Below are positions 2,638-27,653 of a stretch of DNA of 28,769 bases, one piece after another; the first letter of the stretch is position 1, and each line of letters begins with the position of its first letter. The notes under the pieces are model-generated. The model ran no database searches. It was not told the DNA's origin and worked only from the letters and a program-made list of their open reading frames with translations. Both the position numbers and the translations under genes were made by a program. Source of the DNA: a virus; the IMG/VR virus record IMGVR_UViG_3300017990_000049, positions 1 through 28,769 of that record; one strand, 5' to 3'.

Positions 2638-2934
2638 ATGCAAACAACGGAATTATCCTTGCGATCTTTACACCTGCTGTCGCCGGGGCTGGCCGACGAT
2701 TTCGCGCAGCAACTGCAGGCGGCGGTAATCGACTGCCGGCAACGGCCGAGCCTCGCGCAGAAACGCGAAGTTACGATCAAGCTCGCGGTTACGCCGCACC
2801 CCGAGGACCCGGACGACGTTTCCATTTTACCGGTTACGACGAGCAAAACGCCCGCGCGAAAGATCGACCCGGTACGAGCTCGGCGTACGCGGGCAAATCA
2901 GTTGCAATTCGATTTCGACACCGAGGACTTTTGA
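2638..2934 (+). CDS. Unrecognised early phage protein, 98 residues
   Basis: ATG 2638 follows GGAGGG by eight bases; an in-frame ATG at 2623 overlaps that ribosome site and is less likely. The protein begins with a helical segment (LSLRSLHLLSPGLADDFAQQ), then has SLAQKREVTIKLAVTPHPED, which reads as a beta-strand with a basic start. It ends in a basic stretch and an acidic tail QLQFDFDTEDF. The middle strand pattern (K-R-E-V-T-I-K-L-x-V-x-P) recalls small phage proteins often found near integrase or replication genes, but no function is known to me. It is the first likely gene after the operator-controlled promoter. Confidence 0.65.
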   Translation: MQTTELSLRSLHLLSPGLADDFAQQLQAAVIDCRQRPSLAQKREVTIKLAVTPHPEDPDDVSILPVTTSKTPARKIDPVRARRTRANQLQFDFDTEDF

Positions 2935-3048
2935 TACGTCGTACACTTTGTTTTCTCTTTTTCTCAGGGAGGGGAGAAACCACGGAGGGCAGCGCGCCGC
3001 CGGCCTCGCACGGAGCGGGCGATCGGGCCGGCGGCTTGTTTGGCTGCC

Positions 3049-4326
3049 ATGAGTACGACACCACAGCACAGCGACGCGGGCAGGGCTTACTCGCTCGATT
3101 TCTCGTTTTCGATCCGGCTGGAGGGCTCGCCGGTGAACGATCAACTCAGGATTGTATGGCCCGAGGACCCGCCGCCGGTCGTATCGGGTACCTCGCCGCC
3201 GCAACTCAAGGGAAGTCAAGGGAACTCAAGGGAAGTCAAGGGAAGTCAAGCCGACGACGACCGGGCCGGCTGGACGATCGAGGCGTATTTCGACCGAGTC
3301 GTCGAGCCCGACTTACGCGCCCGCGGCCGGGCCGGCTCGACGATCACGGATTACTGTACACACGTACAAGCCTGGCGGCGGTATTGGGGGCAGGTCGCGG
3401 CCGGGCCGGAGTACCGGATTGCATATCCGGTACTCCGCTCAATTACACCCTCGGACCTGGAAACCTGGCGGGCCTGGCTGGTCGACCAGGCGGGCAAGTC
3501 GGCCGGCGTCGCCGACAAGTACACCGGTTCAATTACCGCGATTTTGCGGCACGCGGCCGCGCGGTGGGTCATCGAGCGGGCCGCCGGCTTGCCGCGGCTT
3601 ACAACGCCGACGGTCGGCTCGAAATTCGTATTTTCGCTCGACCAGGCCGAGGCAATGTATGCGGCAATGGGGCTTGCCGTATGGCCGAGCCGGCGGCGCG
3701 ACGGGTCGAAACCTCGGCGGCCGGCCGCCGACTACTGGCGGGCCTGGCTCGCGATCATGTGGACGTACGGCCCGCGCGTGCAGGAGGTCTGGGCGTACAA
3801 GTCGGCCCGCTCGCCGCTAACCTGGTCGGCGATCGACCCGCGACCGACGCGGGCCGTCGAGGACGCAAAATTTTGCTCGCCGGCCGGCTGGCTGGTGTAC
3901 ACGCCGCGAAAACAACGACGCCGCAAACCTCGGCCGCTCGTGCTACCCCTGGCGCCGCGGGTTCGAGAACTGCTGGATACCATCCGGCCGAAAGGGGCCG
4001 ACGACGACGAGCCGATTTTCGACTTTCCCCTCTCGGCAGGCACGAGCAAGGGCAACGGGCCGCCGCCGGCCTCGGCGGGGTTCTACGCGCAATACTGGGC
4101 GATCGCCGAGGCGGCCGGGATCCCGACGACCAGGTCGGCCGCCGGGCGGCGGATTGCCGGGCCGGCCGATTTCCGCAATACGGCCTTAACGGCGTACGGC
4201 GAGCTCGGGAAATTCGTTACGGGGCACGCGGCCGGCCGCGGGGTCGACGACGTGAATTATCGGCAACCGACCGAGCAGCTTATCGAGGCAATCTACGCTC
4301 GCCCGCAACCGGGCCGGGCGACATAG
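3049..4326 (+). CDS. int: Tyrosine recombinase / phage integrase
   Basis: Catalyses site-specific integration at the attachment site. An N-terminal core-binding (SAM-like) domain starts near residue 80 (WTIEAYFDRVVEPDLRARGR, then STITDYCTHVQAWRRYWG). The catalytic domain contains YGPRVQEVW with the first arginine near residue 242, and the C-terminal part has FRNTALTAYG, GHAAGRGVDD and NYRQ, giving the second arginine, the histidine region and the nucleophilic tyrosine. The usual HxxR histidine ahead of FRNT is not obvious. The start is uncertain: ATG 3049 has a poor ribosome site, while GTG 3133 has GGAGGG seven bases upstream. The sequence before the core-binding domain includes a 10-bp tandem repeat (3201-3250). 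It lies 1.3 kb from the tRNA-like core. Confidence 0.85.
   Translation: MSTTPQHSDAGRAYSLDFSFSIRLEGSPVNDQLRIVWPEDPPPVVSGTSPPQLKGSQGNSREVKGSQADDDRAGWTIEAYFDRVVEPDLRARGRAGSTITDYCTHVQAWRRYWGQVAAGPEYRIAYPVLRSITPSDLETWRAWLVDQAGKSAGVADKYTGSITAILRHAAARWVIERAAGLPRLTTPTVGSKFVFSLDQAEAMYAAMGLAVWPSRRRDGSKPRRPAADYWRAWLAIMWTYGPRVQEVWAYKSARSPLTWSAIDPRPTRAVEDAKFCSPAGWLVYTPRKQRRRKPRPLVLPLAPRVRELLDTIRPKGADDDEPIFDFPLSAGTSKGNGPPPASAGFYAQYWAIAEAAGIPTTRSAAGRRIAGPADFRNTALTAYGELGKFVTGHAAGRGVDDVNYRQPTEQLIEAIYARPQPGRAT
3201..3250 (+). repeat. Five tandem 10-bp repeats inside the integrase gene
   Basis: Five adjoining units (GCAACTCAAG, GGAAGTCAAG, GGAACTCAAG, GGAAGTCAAG, GGAAGTCAAG). Because 10 is not a multiple of 3, each unit is read in a different frame, giving the low-complexity peptide QLKGSQGNSREVKGSQ. 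Losing or gaining one or two units would shift the integrase frame if translation starts upstream. They could be integrase arm sites or a slippage hot spot. Confidence 0.85.
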
Positions 4327-4560
4327 CACACGCGAGCCGGCTTGTACTGTCCGGTACGTCAAGATTGATGGCACGGCCGAGCGTTTTGCCGCGGCCGGCC
4401 CGCGTTTTCTCACATCACGCTTGAGGATTACTTCCCGGCGCGCGGCTCGAAGTCGCAACCGGTCGGCACGGATCGCCGGCCGGGCCGGCACAGAGGCGAC
4501 CCGGCCGGCAAGGATGCGGGCCGGGTCGGGCGCTTACTCTACTCATGGAAGGGCAATAGC
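4327..4560 (+). other. Gene-free gap before the csrA operon
   Basis: 234 bases with no frame carrying a ribosome site and credible protein. TGTCCGGTA at 4349-4357 resembles the motif repeated in the left block. The csrA frame is open upstream to about 4423 but without a start codon. A promoter for the following genes is expected here but none stands out. Confidence 0.4.
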
Positions 4561-4740
4561 ATGCTAGTTTTGACACGCAAAATGGGCGAACGATTGGAAA
4601 TCCAAGCCGGCGACCAGGTCGTCGAGGTCCACGTCAACGGTATTTCTGGCTCGAAAGTACGGCTCGGGATCACGGCGCCGGCCGAGGTCGCGATCGCTCG
4701 CGGCGAGCTCGTCGACCGAGAGCAAGGGGGCGACGCATGA
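4561..4740 (+). CDS. csrA: CsrA/RsmA carbon storage regulator homologue
   Basis: A 59-residue protein matching CsrA along its length: MLVLTRKMGERLEI at the N-terminus, VRLGITAPAEVAIARGEL in the second half and an acidic tail. Leu4 and an arginine equivalent to E. coli Arg44 (here R47) are present; these contact RNA in studied CsrA dimers. CsrA binds GGA motifs in mRNA leaders, usually covering ribosome sites and blocking translation, sometimes stabilising the message. The start has GGAAGGG seven bases upstream. It is the first gene of a tightly packed run (its stop overlaps the next start in ATGA), so its product may act early in infection on phage or host messages. Targets are unknown. Confidence 0.93.
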   Translation: MLVLTRKMGERLEIQAGDQVVEVHVNGISGSKVRLGITAPAEVAIARGELVDREQGGDA

Positions 4741-4892
4741 GGTTTTGCGAAAGATGCGGCGACCAGGTCGCGGCCGACTGGCCGCACGACTGCAACGATT
4801 GCATGATACTTTCCGACCTGGCGTACGACGCCGCCCGCGAGTCGGGCCGAATCGTACGCCGCGACGACGACCCGCCCGAGGGCTCGCCATGA
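4737..4892 (+). CDS. Small zinc-finger-like protein, 51 residues
   Basis: The start overlaps the csrA stop (ATGA at 4737-4740), and its own stop overlaps the next start the same way (4889-4892), so translation is probably coupled. The sequence begins MRFCERCGDQVAADWPHDCN and continues DCMILSD, giving CxxC then CxxC, a plausible four-Cys zinc site within the first 23 residues. The rest is acidic and Pro-rich. It may bind nucleic acid or protein; no named family is recognised. Confidence 0.7.
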   Translation: MRFCERCGDQVAADWPHDCNDCMILSDLAYDAARESGRIVRRDDDPPEGSP

Positions 4893-5215
4893 GCAACGCG
4901 CAACTCGACCTATTCAACAACCCGCGACGATCGCGCCCGCCGGCCCGGCCTTGCGCAACCTCGATCGCGGCGGCCGAGTGGATCGCCAAGCACGAGGGCA
5001 CCCTCGCCGATCGCGTGCGCCGGTTTATCGCCGGCCGAGGCGACCACGGGGCGACCCGTGAAGAAATTCACCTGGAAACGGGTATCCGCGAGAATACGGT
5101 CGGCGCCCGGATCCGGCAATTGGAACTGGCCGGGATGATTTTCCGATCCGACGATACCCGGCCGACAACCTCGGGCCGGGCCGCGACCGTCTGGCGACAT
5201 AAGAGGGCCGTATAA
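4889..5215 (+). CDS. Winged-helix DNA-binding protein, 108 residues
   Basis: The N-terminus is disordered in appearance (LDLFNNPRRSRPPARP). From about residue 35 it reads DRVRRFIAGRGDHGATREEI, then GIRENTVGARIRQLELAGMI and a Thr/Ser-rich wing TTSGRAATVW. Helix, GATxxEI, recognition helix with TVxARIRxLExAG, then a beta wing is the order of a winged helix-turn-helix as found in many phage DNA-binding proteins. It starts inside the preceding stop (ATGA). In the early run it may regulate transcription or assist replication. An Arg-rich N-terminus could add DNA contacts. Confidence 0.75.
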   Translation: MSNAQLDLFNNPRRSRPPARPCATSIAAAEWIAKHEGTLADRVRRFIAGRGDHGATREEIHLETGIRENTVGARIRQLELAGMIFRSDDTRPTTSGRAATVWRHKRAV

Positions 5216-5458: not shown

Positions 5459-6331
5459 ATGGATCGCAACCTAAAGCTCGATTTCGAGAGCTCCAGAAAC
5501 GAATGGCACGCGGTACTCGTACGGGTCACACGGGCCGCGCTCGACGCCGGGCCGCGTACGCCTACGAGTTTCCATGTTCTTGGATTTGTGCGACTGGTGT
5601 TCAACCTGGCGACCGTATCGGGCTTTCGATCGCCGCGAGCGGTCGAGCTCGACGAGTCGGAACTCGCCGACGAGTTCTACCTCGGCCGCACGGCGATTCG
5701 CTCGGTCATTTCTCGCGCTCTGTCCACCGGGATCGTTACCCGGTCGACCATCGACGAAAGGGGCGCGCGGCGGCGATACCGGTATACCGTCGATCTGGCG
5801 GCGATCCGGCGGCTCGCCGGCTTTGATGTTCGCGAGGCAAACAACGATGTTCGCCTGCCGAACAATAATGTTCGCGAGGCAAACAACGATGTTCGCGAGG
5901 CAAACAACGATGTTCGCGAGGCAAACAACCAAGAGGAATTATCTTCTCGGGTATCTTCTCGGGGTTCTTGTAATCTTGCGCCGACCGATCGAACGACCGG
6001 CGCAGTTTGCGAGGATCGGGTCGAGGAAATCCGGCGAGAAGCGAACCGGATCAAAACGGCCGGGCCTCTCCCCACCAGATCGCCCGACGATCGGGCGCTC
6101 GTACTGACCGCGGCTACTTTGCTCGTCGACGGCAAGCTCGCGCCCGACCAGGTCGAGCAGGCGATCGAGTCGGTACAGAGCAAGAAACCTCGCAACCGCG
6201 CGGCCTGGTTTCGCTCTTGTTTGGTGAATGGTGCCAAGCGAGCGGGCGACGACTGGCACGCGCTCGAAGCCGCGGCCGACCTGCCGGCCGAGCTCGTCGA
6301 GCGGAAACGTCAAGGAGAATTACTAGCATGA
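5459..6331 (+). CDS. Replication-initiator-like protein with internal iterons
   Basis: A 290-residue protein with a winged-helix N-terminal half: VELDESELADEFYLGRTAIR, SVISRALSTGIVTRSTIDER and a basic wing RRRYRYTV, ending near residue 118. It is followed by five seven-residue repeats (DVREANN and variants, residues 123-157), a Ser/Thr linker, and a helical C-terminal domain (about 195-290) with DDRALVLTAATLLVDGKLAP and AAWFRSCLVNGAKR. An N-terminal DNA-binding domain, a DNA repeat within the linker and a C-terminal partner-binding domain is the organisation of lambda O, whose origin lies inside its own gene. Likely role: origin recognition and recruitment of host helicase. Homology to a named family is not certain. 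The stop overlaps the next start in ATGA. Confidence 0.65.
   Translation: MDRNLKLDFESSRNEWHAVLVRVTRAALDAGPRTPTSFHVLGFVRLVFNLATVSGFRSPRAVELDESELADEFYLGRTAIRSVISRALSTGIVTRSTIDERGARRRYRYTVDLAAIRRLAGFDVREANNDVRLPNNNVREANNDVREANNDVREANNQEELSSRVSSRGSCNLAPTDRTTGAVCEDRVEEIRREANRIKTAGPLPTRSPDDRALVLTAATLLVDGKLAPDQVEQAIESVQSKKPRNRAAWFRSCLVNGAKRAGDDWHALEAAADLPAELVERKRQGELLA
5825..5980 (+). other. Putative phage replication origin: five 21-bp iterons plus AT-rich tract
   Basis: Five adjoining 21-bp units begin at 5825, 5846, 5867, 5888 and 5909; four share GATGTTCGCGAGGCAAACAA with at most one change, the second (GATGTTCGCCTGCCGAACAA) is divergent. They are followed at once by a TTCT- and AT-richer stretch (5935-5980, with two TATCTTCTCGG copies) in an otherwise very GC-rich genome. 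Iterons next to an AT-rich unwinding region inside an initiator gene match the lambda ori plan. The 21-bp unit also keeps the reading frame. Confidence 0.65.
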
Positions 6332-7383: not shown

Positions 7384-7809
7384 ATGGATAGGCACGACGC
7401 AGCGGTCGCACTTTTAGAGAGCTTGCAAAGCTCGCTCGAAATCGCGGCCGAGATTGAATCGGAACTGCTCGACACGGTCGGCGAGGGCCGCGAGCTTGCC
7501 GATCACCCGACTTCGCTCTTGGCGGCCGTACGACTACGAAAAGCGATACGCTCAATCGAGGGCTCGGTCGACCTGGTCGCCCGGGTCGTACGCTCGGTCG
7601 CCGCGGCGGATCGCGGGCGGCGCAGCGAGCAGCAAGCCGGCGAAACGCGGCCGAGGCGCGGGCGCCGCGTACCCGTATTCGACACGACCGAGCGGCCGCC
7701 GGTCGTCCGGCGATCCTCGACGGTTTGCGCCGCGACCGATCCGGCGGCGATTCCGCCCGAGGCGCGGAAAGTCGCCGAGGTCGACGGCGACGAGTCGGCC
7801 GGTGGATGA
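7384..7809 (+). CDS. Unrecognised 141-residue protein; possible small terminase subunit by position
   Basis: ATG 7384 follows an eight-G run by six bases. Residues 1-75 are strongly helical and acidic (HDAAVALLESLQSSLEIAAE, then IRSIEGSVDLVARVVRSVAA), while residues 80-141 are disordered, basic then acidic. Its stop overlaps the start of the terminase large subunit (ATGA), the usual place of the small subunit, but no helix-turn-helix can be seen, so that assignment is positional only. A helical oligomerising domain with a charged tail is compatible with several roles. Confidence 0.6.
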   Translation: MDRHDAAVALLESLQSSLEIAAEIESELLDTVGEGRELADHPTSLLAAVRLRKAIRSIEGSVDLVARVVRSVAAADRGRRSEQQAGETRPRRGRRVPVFDTTERPPVVRRSSTVCAATDPAAIPPEARKVAEVDGDESAGG

Positions 7810-24200: not shown

Positions 24201-27200
24201 ATGGTCTACCATCGGCAGCGAGTACGCCGCGGCGAGGCGATCGAGCTCAACGCGGGGATTCAAAACGATTTCGTCGCCGCGGCCGACGCGCACCGCGAGC
24301 AGGAGTACCCGCTCGGCCGGCAAACGATTCGCGAGGAATCCGACCGCGACCGTATCAAGATCAAGAACGGGACCGCGGCCGCGCTCGTCACGGGCCGCGT
24401 ACTGGCGATCGACGGGCCGCTTTTCTCGCCCGACGCGAACCTCGACGAGTTCCGATTCAGAGCGAGCGTATCCGGCTGTACGCCGGGCGACGACAATTGC
24501 GGGCGGTTCGCGGTACTGGCCGAGCCGATCGACTCGGGGGCGATCGGTTGGGGGATCGTCAGCGGTTGGGCGCCGGCTCGCGTGAACGTGGAGCACGAGG
24601 CGCATACGCACGCGGACGTATCCGCCGGCTCGTGTACACTCAAGAGCGGCCGCAACGGGTCGGCCCGGATCCTATGGAAACAAGCCGGCACGGGCGAGCG
24701 GTGGGCGCTGGTCGCCGTTTCGAATAACGCGAGCCGCACGGTCACGGCAACGGCGCTCGAATGCCTACGGCCGGGCGAGTCGGCCGCGTTTCGGATCGGG
24801 CCGGACGATTGCCCGCAAAGCTCGGCCTCGGGCGGCTCTTGCGGCGAGTGGCCGGCGGAGCTCGAAACGGTCACGGTATACGATCCGCTCTACCGCAACC
24901 TGTACGTACGCGGCGAGCAAGCGCCGGTCGAATGGAATGAATGCTGTCAGCGGTTCGAGCTCGCCGGCTCGTACGGGCTTACCCGCCGCGGCCGTGCGCC
25001 GGCTGGTATCCCGATCGGCGGCTCGGGCCGGGTCGAAATCTTGTGCGACGCCGAGCTCGGCGGGTCGAGCTCGGGCTCGTTTTCTCACTCGTGTTGCGAA
25101 ACGCTCGACAGCGCTTGCGAGGTTGCGGCCTGCCACGATTTTGTGTGCGAGCGGGCCGTCGGGGCCGGCGACGAGGTTGTCGTCGTATACATGGGATGCG
25201 AGCGCGGTTGGGTCGTCGTCGCGATCGGCGAGGACTGTTGCGCCGTTTCGTCGAGCTCGTCGGGCTCGTCGTCGAGCAAAAGCGGGAGCTCGTCGAGCTC
25301 TTGCGAGACCTGCGAGTGTGTGCGCGTTTCCGGATCGGATATACCCGGCGTCAACGGCCTTTACGTTTGGAGCGAAACGGACAACCGATGGAATCGCGAG
25401 GGCGACGCGCACTTACCGTCGGTCATTCGCCCGCCCGGTTGGGCCGGATTTGAGACCTATATTATCCGGCACGCCCACACAAACTATTACCAAGCCGATT
25501 GCCTCACGGGCAACTGGTCGATAATACCCGGCTCGGGCGCTACGACCGATATTACGGTCGAGTGTGTACCCTGTGAATCGTCGAGCTCGTCGGAAAGCGA
25601 GAGCGAGTCGGAAAGCGAGAGCAAGAGCTCAAGCGAGAGCAAGAGCTCAAGCGAGAGCTCGTCGGAAAGCGAGAGCGAGTCGTTTTCTGGCTCGTCGAGC
25701 GGCTCGGCAGAATGCGATTGGACCGGCGAGCTCACGCTCGGCCGCGGCGACCTGTTGCGAGACGGCGACTACGTCACCGAGGGCCGGGTCACCTTAACGA
25801 TACGCGGCGGCAAAATCTGCGAGGTCACCGACGCCGGCCGGGCCGCGGTGTACGCCTGTTGCGAGGGCTCGTCGAGCTCTTGCGGTACCGAGCAACTTAC
25901 GCAGCAAGAGCTACGGGCCGCCGGGCCGGAGCGATGGGAACTTTACGAGCGCGAGGCAACTGTCGATTACGACGACTGTCAAATTTCGTACGATCCCTGG
26001 GAACTCGTACAGACTCTTTGCGCGGTAGCTTGCGGGTCGAGCTCGTCGTCGAGCGTTTCGTCGAGCTCGTCGGGCTCGTCGTCGAGCAGCGGGCCGAGTT
26101 CGTCGTCGAGCAGCGGGCCGAGCGTTTCGAGCTCGTCGAGCGGATCGAGCTCGTCGAGCGTTTCGTCGAGCTCGTCGGGCTCGTCGTCGAGCAGCGAATG
26201 CGACGATCAATCGCCGGCATGTAGTGTCTGCCAAACCGGCACGACGCCCGACCGGATCAAGGTCGTCGTCGCGGGCGTCGCCAATACCGGCAACTGCGAC
26301 GAGTGTGTATCGAATATCAACGGCACGCATTACCTGGAAACCGCGGTCATTCTCGGCGATCCGGCGCCTTGCATGTGGGAAAAGCCGGTCGACGGCTGTT
26401 GCGGCGAGGCAACCGACGAAATTTGCTTTATTAACTACAAGATCGAATTGAGTGCGGGAAGTATCGTCGGCCGCGTACGATTTCAGGACTCGAACAAGTC
26501 AAACGTAGCGGAATACAAAGGCACCTATTCGAGCAACCCGGCCGACTGCGCCGAGGCGCCGTCAATGGCGTTTCAATACGACAACTCGGATTGCGATTTC
26601 GGCACGGGCTCGGCAACCGTCACGATCACACCGATATGGAACCGAAACTATTCGTGTCAATTGACGCCGAGCGCCAGCGACACGGGCGGCCGCGGGCTTC
26701 TGATTCTCGAAGGGGCCTTGCCGGCGAATATCTGGACGGAGGCGCAGGACGGCGGCGGCGATCTGTTATTCTTCGGCGACGCCGCCGGCGAAAACCGGCT
26801 TGCTTGCGACGTAGAAAAGTTCGATACGGCGGCACAAGAGGCAATCATACACGTCGAAGAATCGGCAACCGTTTATTGCCGATATGGGACCTGCCCGGGG
26901 TTCACGGCGAGCCAACCCGGCGCCGACGAGTCGTACGGCGCGCACGCCGTATACGGCAACGCGGCCGAGGCTTTTCTCGGTTTGGGCGAGGATCCGTCGG
27001 GCGGCGCGCCGCAAATGGTCGACCGCACCGGCAACGGCAACAACGGCACCTCGGAAGGATCCATGACCAGCGGCGACGTTATCGCCGCAAAGGTCGGCGA
27101 CGGCCTGGACTTCGACGGCGTCGACGACGCGATCAACTGCGGGCAGGTCGCGGACTTCACGGGCAGCTATTCAATATCGCTTTGGGTCAAGCCGACGGCG

Positions 27201-27653
27201 GCCTCAACAAACGAAATGGTCGCAACGAAATACGCCGATGGCGGCGCCGGGTCACAATGGCGCCTGTGCGTCGACGCGAACGAACGAATACAAGGCATTC
27301 ATATAGATTCGGTTGCGCCGCTGCTCTACAACAAGGTCGAATCCGCGACCGGCCAAAATGGGGCCTGGCACCACGTCGTACTCAAGTTCACAAACGGCGT
27401 CGGAAGCGAACTATACATTGACGGCTCGTCGGTCGACACGGACACGTCGCGGACCGGCGGCGCGCCGTCGTCGTCTGTAGACTGTCAGATCGCCGCACAA
27501 GACGACGCAACACACCGGCGTTTCGGCGGCGTCGCCGTCGATTCTGTCGCCATATTCACGGCGGCGCTGACCACCGCGCAAGCAAGCGCAATTTGGAGTA
27601 TGGAATCCAACAACCCGGCGTTTTGGACGGTCGGTACACCCGTCGCACTATAG
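24201..27653 (+). CDS. Large Ser-rich, Cys-rich tail protein with LamG-like C-terminus (receptor-binding candidate)
   Basis: 1150 residues. N-terminal 1-120 is a tail-type domain with ALVTGRVLAIDGPLFSPDAN and NLDEFRF. It continues into cysteine-rich modules (about 240-345, 370-460, 505-610, 670-720 with many CC and CxxC), separated by three serine linkers near 349-368, 459-503 and 612-665. The last 200 residues look like a Laminin-G/concanavalin jelly roll: GLDFDGVDDAINCG, YSISLWVKP, AWHHVVLKFTNGVG, LYIDGSSVDTD. That domain binds carbohydrate or protein in other systems, so receptor binding is likely. Start ATG 24201 lies one base after the preceding stop. Poly-Ser spacers may be flexible, glycosylatable stalks. 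Confidence 0.75.
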   Translation: MVYHRQRVRRGEAIELNAGIQNDFVAAADAHREQEYPLGRQTIREESDRDRIKIKNGTAAALVTGRVLAIDGPLFSPDANLDEFRFRASVSGCTPGDDNCGRFAVLAEPIDSGAIGWGIVSGWAPARVNVEHEAHTHADVSAGSCTLKSGRNGSARILWKQAGTGERWALVAVSNNASRTVTATALECLRPGESAAFRIGPDDCPQSSASGGSCGEWPAELETVTVYDPLYRNLYVRGEQAPVEWNECCQRFELAGSYGLTRRGRAPAGIPIGGSGRVEILCDAELGGSSSGSFSHSCCETLDSACEVAACHDFVCERAVGAGDEVVVVYMGCERGWVVVAIGEDCCAVSSSSSGSSSSKSGSSSSSCETCECVRVSGSDIPGVNGLYVWSETDNRWNREGDAHLPSVIRPPGWAGFETYIIRHAHTNYYQADCLTGNWSIIPGSGATTDITVECVPCESSSSSESESESESESKSSSESKSSSESSSESESESFSGSSSGSAECDWTGELTLGRGDLLRDGDYVTEGRVTLTIRGGKICEVTDAGRAAVYACCEGSSSSCGTEQLTQQELRAAGPERWELYEREATVDYDDCQISYDPWELVQTLCAVACGSSSSSSVSSSSSGSSSSSGPSSSSSSGPSVSSSSSGSSSSSVSSSSSGSSSSSECDDQSPACSVCQTGTTPDRIKVVVAGVANTGNCDECVSNINGTHYLETAVILGDPAPCMWEKPVDGCCGEATDEICFINYKIELSAGSIVGRVRFQDSNKSNVAEYKGTYSSNPADCAEAPSMAFQYDNSDCDFGTGSATVTITPIWNRNYSCQLTPSASDTGGRGLLILEGALPANIWTEAQDGGGDLLFFGDAAGENRLACDVEKFDTAAQEAIIHVEESATVYCRYGTCPGFTASQPGADESYGAHAVYGNAAEAFLGLGEDPSGGAPQMVDRTGNGNNGTSEGSMTSGDVIAAKVGDGLDFDGVDDAINCGQVADFTGSYSISLWVKPTAASTNEMVATKYADGGAGSQWRLCVDANERIQGIHIDSVAPLLYNKVESATGQNGAWHHVVLKFTNGVGSELYIDGSSVDTDTSRTGGAPSSSVDCQIAAQDDATHRRFGGVAVDSVAIFTAALTTAQASAIWSMESNNPAFWTVGTPVAL
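25576..25706 (+). repeat. Ser/Glu low-complexity tract
   Basis: Repeating GAAAGCGAGAGC and AGCGAGAGCAAGAGCTCA units encode a Ser-Glu/Ser-Lys linker between two Cys-rich modules of the tail protein. The unit copies are close to perfect, which suggests slippage. Confidence 0.8.
26035..26197 (+). repeat. Poly-Ser tract built of TCGAGCTCGTCG units
   Basis: TCG and AGC codons alternate in repeats such as TCGAGCTCGTCGTCGAGC, coding runs of five or six serines separated by Gly, Val or Pro. The nearly identical DNA motif occurs in the same gene at 25248-25308, in the 9905 gene near 9937 and at the 3' end of the capsid gene near 14440. Confidence 0.85.

Follow-up and report, generated by a model that had tools for sequence, protein, structure and literature searches.

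A tandem repeat that lies within an open reading frame, and keeps its frame, raises the question of whether it serves the protein, as a repetitive linker, or the DNA, as a set of binding sites, and, if the latter, whether the sites belong to a replication origin. This question is addressed here for a 290-residue reading frame in the window, by which we mean the whole stretch of 28,769 nucleotides that was analyzed (IMG/VR virus record IMGVR_UViG_3300017990_000049). The first-pass annotation of this DNA had read the repeat as a probable origin inside an initiator gene.

Iteron dyads and adjacent unstable DNA

The five 21-bp direct repeats that had been reported are present in the place claimed for them (Table 1). 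Copies 1, 4, and 5 are identical, with one base different in copy 3 and five in copy 2. As had also been claimed, the repeat keeps the frame and encodes DVREANN, exactly so in copies 1, 4, and 5, with DVRLPNN in copy 2 and NVREANN in copy 3. Each copy is at the same time one imperfect 17-bp palindrome, TGTTYG-N5-CRAACA, a pattern matched five times in the window, always within the array (chance expectation 0.08, with at most one mismatch).

Table 1. Positions of features in and around the predicted initiator gene
Feature	Position	Strand	Basis
Small winged-helix-like protein, possibly of the same early module	4889..5212	+	phrog_1123 (E 5.8e-08), unknown function
Replication initiator gene (predicted), 290 aa	5459..6331	+	ORF; N-domains of C-domain relatives; layout like array-bearing initiators
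Winged-helix N-terminal domain, putative dyad binder	5459..5824	+	AlphaFold2 model; weak GntR wHTH match
Iteron array, five 21-bp copies (starts 5825, 5846, 5867, 5888, 5909), linker-coding	5825..5929	+	Repeat detection, copy alignment
Dyad 1, TGTTCGCGAGGCAAACA	5827..5843	.	Dyad pattern search
Dyad 2, TGTTCGCCTGCCGAACA, arms perfect	5848..5864	.	Dyad pattern search, copy comparison
Dyad 3, TGTTCGCGAGGCAAACA	5869..5885	.	Dyad pattern search
Dyad 4, TGTTCGCGAGGCAAACA	5890..5906	.	Dyad pattern search
Dyad 5, TGTTCGCGAGGCAAACA	5911..5927	.	Dyad pattern search
Candidate DNA unwinding element, 60 bp	5918..5977	.	AT content and nearest-neighbor stability
Pair of exact 12-bp direct repeats, TATCTTCTCGGG, in the unstable stretch	5940..5963	.	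Repeat detection
C-terminal domain (aa 184-284), putative host-factor adaptor	6008..6310	+	Identity to L257 and L259

It could be supposed that the repeat is a linker at the protein level only, DVREANN having been expanded by slippage with no role for the DNA. The identity of copies 1, 4, and 5, together with spacings that are all multiples of 3, resembles a recent in-frame duplication, and the spacing in the window is, by itself, compatible with a protein-level repeat because all five sites are in one frame. This explanation is nevertheless very unlikely in view of copy 2, in which the peptide is altered from EA to LP while the dyad arms become perfect; in simulations in which the five changes of this copy were placed at random, 6/6 arms were obtained in 0.7% of trials. 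It is also disfavored by the expectation that just 0.33% of the real 21-mers of the window would give GTTY-N7-RAAC once tandemized, and by the occurrence in other families of the same dyads with different peptides and in other frames. A test based on codon choice is weakly informative, the probability of a chance dyad given the peptide being 0.13 for DVREANN and 0.02 for DVRLPNN.

The AT-rich stretch that had been described directly after the repeats is present at 5928-5977, but is AT-rich in relative terms only (58%, versus a mean of 36%). By nearest-neighbor energy, no DNA in the 3.2 kb between 4.5 and 7.7 kb is less stable than the best 40-60-bp segments after the array, which rank in the lowest 0.1-0.2% for stability window-wide; among 60-bp segments, the minimum of these 3.2 kb is the candidate unwinding element, which is in the top 0.12% for instability across the window. 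The pair of 12-bp repeats within it recalls the repeats of unwinding elements. A GC-skew peak at 5.8-6.0 kb, put forward in the first-pass annotation as a check, is absent, and the minimum of the cumulative skew is at 2498; in a genome that is short and temperate-phage-like, the missing skew switch at the array says little.

Domains of the predicted initiator

With an input alignment composed of other array-bearing proteins, AlphaFold2 predicts a winged-helix fold for residues 1-122 (mean pLDDT 80; order H-H-E-H-H-E-E), and the earlier placing of the repeats in a linker between a winged-helix domain and a C-terminal domain is borne out to the extent that this fold is predicted. A full-length model made without an alignment was of low confidence (pLDDT 54) and was set aside. 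The match of the N-domain to the GntR wHTH (E 0.0026) is weak and below the cut-off. A structure search with the N-domain confirmed the wHTH, but its matches do not tell initiators and transcription regulators apart: the RepA N-domains 4pql, 4pt7, and 5kbj (Z 7.8-8.7, rmsd about 6) are tied with unrelated winged helices. A pooled N-domain profile matches the DnaD/RepA structures 2vn2 (E 3e-08) and 4pt7 (E 3.5e-07), largely because of the other proteins by which the profile is dominated; the window protein alone gave nothing significant in a PDB sequence search, and no DnaD/RepA match. Searches with the 290-residue protein likewise gave no Pfam family above the cut-off, with no match to PF04492 (Phage_rep_O) or PF06970 (RepA_N), and no PHROG at E≤0.001, the best (E 0.057) being a family of unknown function.

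Close homologs were found among viral contigs only in a near-identical virus, L001 (99.9% identity to the window over 6.5 kb); there were none in genome contigs searched with peptide patterns and none in plasmids, with one insignificant phage match. Over 2670-4792, the identity of L001 is 97.6% with 14 gap openings, and downstream it is 99.9% and gap-free. An integrase-like ORF at 3040-4326 has near its 5' end, at 3206-3250, a 10-bp tandem repeat, TCAAGGGAAG, in 4.5 copies. An ORF of 1150 residues at 24201-27653 contains numerous low-complexity repeats rich in serine and may specify a tail or adhesion protein.

The C-terminal domain has no match to known families by sequence, and it is related to two proteins, L257 and L259, that are encoded in one planctomycete genome, with identities of 53 and 44%, respectively, across the stretch given in Table 1 and of 54 and 47% in the best segments. 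No further relatives of the domain were present in the other 391 of 392 genomes sampled from the same phylum. The N-domains of the two relatives differ from that of the window protein and both match replication-initiator families (L257, phrog_2509, E 3e-47; L259, phrog_2514, DnaD-like, E 4e-22), which provides direct evidence that the C-domain of the window protein is one of replication initiators and that it is combined with more than one kind of N-domain. There are no GTTY-N7-RAAC sites at the L257 and L259 loci, and of the N-domains seen with this C-domain, only one is accompanied by these dyad sites. An integrase-like ORF, recognized by eye, adjoins L259. Judged by the C-domain relatives, the host of the phage is probably a planctomycete bacterium.

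These relationships bear on two other functions for the gene. The presence of a large terminase ORF at 7725, about 1.4 kb downstream, would suit a terminase small subunit having its packaging site (pac or cos) in its own gene, and some small terminases are indeed HTH proteins with sites so placed; however, the C-domain relatives carry replication-initiator N-domains and other genes with such arrays are annotated as initiators of replication, and we regard this identity for the ORF as extremely improbable. Alternatively, the dyads might be operators through which the winged-helix protein regulates transcription, or itself, from inside its own gene, the origin being elsewhere. Structure-search matches of such winged helices are mostly transcription regulators, and similar dyads are found in operator-like, apparently non-coding places in small phages, as tandem TGTTCGATAATCGAACA-type dyads in the phage contigs L004 (position 46), L007 (2966), and L008 (97). 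Regulation of this kind as the sole function is nonetheless unlikely, since the C-domain is common to replication-initiator proteins and the combination of a mid-gene array, several phased copies, and a one-sided unstable segment recurs across initiator families; moreover, autoregulation and origin function could coexist.

Dyad arrays in other phage genes

The scan pattern was derived from the window, but the phages used for the tests were others. A DNA-only search of viral contigs for a tandem pair of TGTTYG dyads led to L003. There, near-identical dyads of the TGTTCGGGAGGCGAACA type, in differing frames, occupy the linker of an ORF for a DnaD-like initiator, and a gene for a DnaB-type helicase follows directly. 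When viral contigs were scanned, again by DNA only, for three tandem GTTC-N7-RAAC dyads, at least 119 stretches were obtained; among the matches listed, 118 loci were analyzed and the array was inside a mid-sized ORF in 79, which, with relatives removed, represent 48 distinct families (here and below, by simple shared-word grouping). The arrays start at a median position of residue 121.5, and at about residues 110-120 in many initiator genes, compared with residue 123 in the window. Among 50 representative array-bearing proteins, that of the window included, 33 match the PHROG category "replication initiation protein," 30 an O-like family, 28 a DnaD-like loader, and 23 HTH_36. With a scrambled control half-site, CTTR, composed of the same letters, 11 stretches were obtained, and none of them could be placed clearly in the linker of an initiator. 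The GTCY half-site, which was also meant as a control, gave 79 stretches, mostly in initiator-like linkers and representing 30 families; therefore the array layout is general and the half-site is variable. GTTC dyad arrays are absent from eight annotated initiators that were sampled (similar to L011; phi31, phi11, PL-1, CSP3, and others), and the idea of one universal half-site was accordingly dropped, GTTC being one specificity among several.

Some matches are of a different character. The planctomycete pattern match L185 is not an initiator array, and the L190 and L201 arrays, with short or no ORFs, resemble chromosomal repeats and were rejected. Long 21-bp GTTC-type arrays outside recognizable genes were seen at L160, L190, L201, L206, and L236, the first three in one metagenome bin, KTt_bin-0590. 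Many actinomycete chromosomes (loci in the range L126-L205) carry a GTTCG-N5-CRAAC dyad pair whose total length is almost constant, mostly 36-37 bp. One initiator-like family, in whose genes GTTCG dyads are arrayed every 23 bp, was met repeatedly in gut genomes of Lachnospiraceae and their relations; its complete ORFs are mostly of 383 residues (L150, L153, L156, L163, L167, L172, L184, L205, L223, and L234).

More than one reading frame is used for the sites in 37 of the 48 GTTY families (among the matches listed) and in 23 of the 30 GTCY families; in both groups the dyad spacings are mostly 21, 22, and 23, with all classes modulo 3 represented. The array sequences in these families are therefore selected as DNA. 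This argument reaches the window by analogy, because its own sites use a single frame. When the two groups are pooled as 78 families (48 GTTY, among the matches listed, and 30 GTCY) and stability is ranked within each locus, a segment in the most unstable 10% is found just downstream of the array (in the direction of the gene, within about 105 bp) in 57, and upstream in 11, which is at the chance level of about 8. The instability in the window is on the same, downstream, side. The p-value for the pooled comparison presumes that the families are independent and is not to be read at face value, and AT-rich codons of the linker may contribute to the pooled result, but the one-sidedness of the unstable segment is clear.

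The predicted origin and its relationship to known systems

The combination of iterons, a one-sided melting segment, and a location in an initiator gene is the anatomy of a lambdoid origin, and 5825-5977 is very probably the vegetative origin of a temperate-type phage, lying inside its own initiator gene and working by the following mechanism. The winged-helix domain (residues 1-122), probably as a dimer, would bind the five TGTTYG-N5-CRAACA dyads, which, being 21 bp apart (two helical turns), would all be on one side of the helix; the complex so formed would melt the adjacent 5918-5977 segment, and the C-domain (residues 184-284) would then recruit the host helicase or primase. Recruitment from the host is proposed because no helicase or loader was recognized among the next genes downstream. 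It should be noted that the window is a linear metagenome contig, perhaps incomplete, so that an origin could instead be situated on a missing part. The proposal of the first-pass annotation, an origin on the lambda O plan with a different repeat, is supported as an architecture, and strongly so by comparison, in that the same mid-gene position, differing frames, and one-sided unstable DNA occur in many initiator genes.

A testable origin can now be proposed for a phage with planctomycete affinities. Related sites in the same layout are present in dozens of unrelated phage gene families, and tandem dyads in a linker with an unstable segment on one side can point to origins where initiator homology is slight or absent, so that the origins of uncultured phages could become readable from DNA, and initiator specificity could be paired with site sequence over many natural variants. 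We would give about even weight to a broader proposal, that a general grammar, readable from sequence, is shared by phage genes for winged-helix initiators across bacterial phyla: the linker is encoded by at least three GTYY-N7-RRAC dyads spaced about 21-23 bp, the unwinding segment is directly 3', and the N-domain and its sites together form a specificity cassette, moved by recombination onto C-domains adapted to the host, the planctomycete C-domain being one example. The dyad class may have been described earlier.

Most of the other array-bearing genes encode phage replisome organizers or DnaD-like initiators (PHROG 270, 678, and 186), which resemble the window gene in layout and size, but the window protein has no significant match to any of these families. 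In pSK41 Rep, a RepA_N protein, the boxes bound by the 120-residue N-domain are in the middle of rep; the central linker is not needed as protein, and the C-domain, which binds DnaG, is conserved according to host group (PMC5703833). The window shares with this system a predicted winged-helix N-domain of about 120 residues and putative origin sites that encode the central linker, and the host-group conservation of the RepA_N C-domain is counted as a likeness to the window C-domain (PMC5703833); it differs in having no RepA_N Pfam match, in a C-domain that matches no family, and in belonging to a phage rather than a plasmid. The lambdoid origin is in the middle of the O gene, with each iteron an inverted repeat and an AT-rich flank (PMC7466680). 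The window differs from lambda in its half-site, TGTTYG, in having five iterons rather than four or six, and in that neither a Phage_rep_O Pfam match nor a P-like loader downstream was seen, but has in common with ori-lambda the (here predicted) mid-gene origin, several inverted-repeat iterons that code for protein, and the AT-rich flank (PMC7466680). The predicted origin in the window is of a known kind, on the lambda O/RepA_N plan; of greater interest is the dyad layout that is so widespread.
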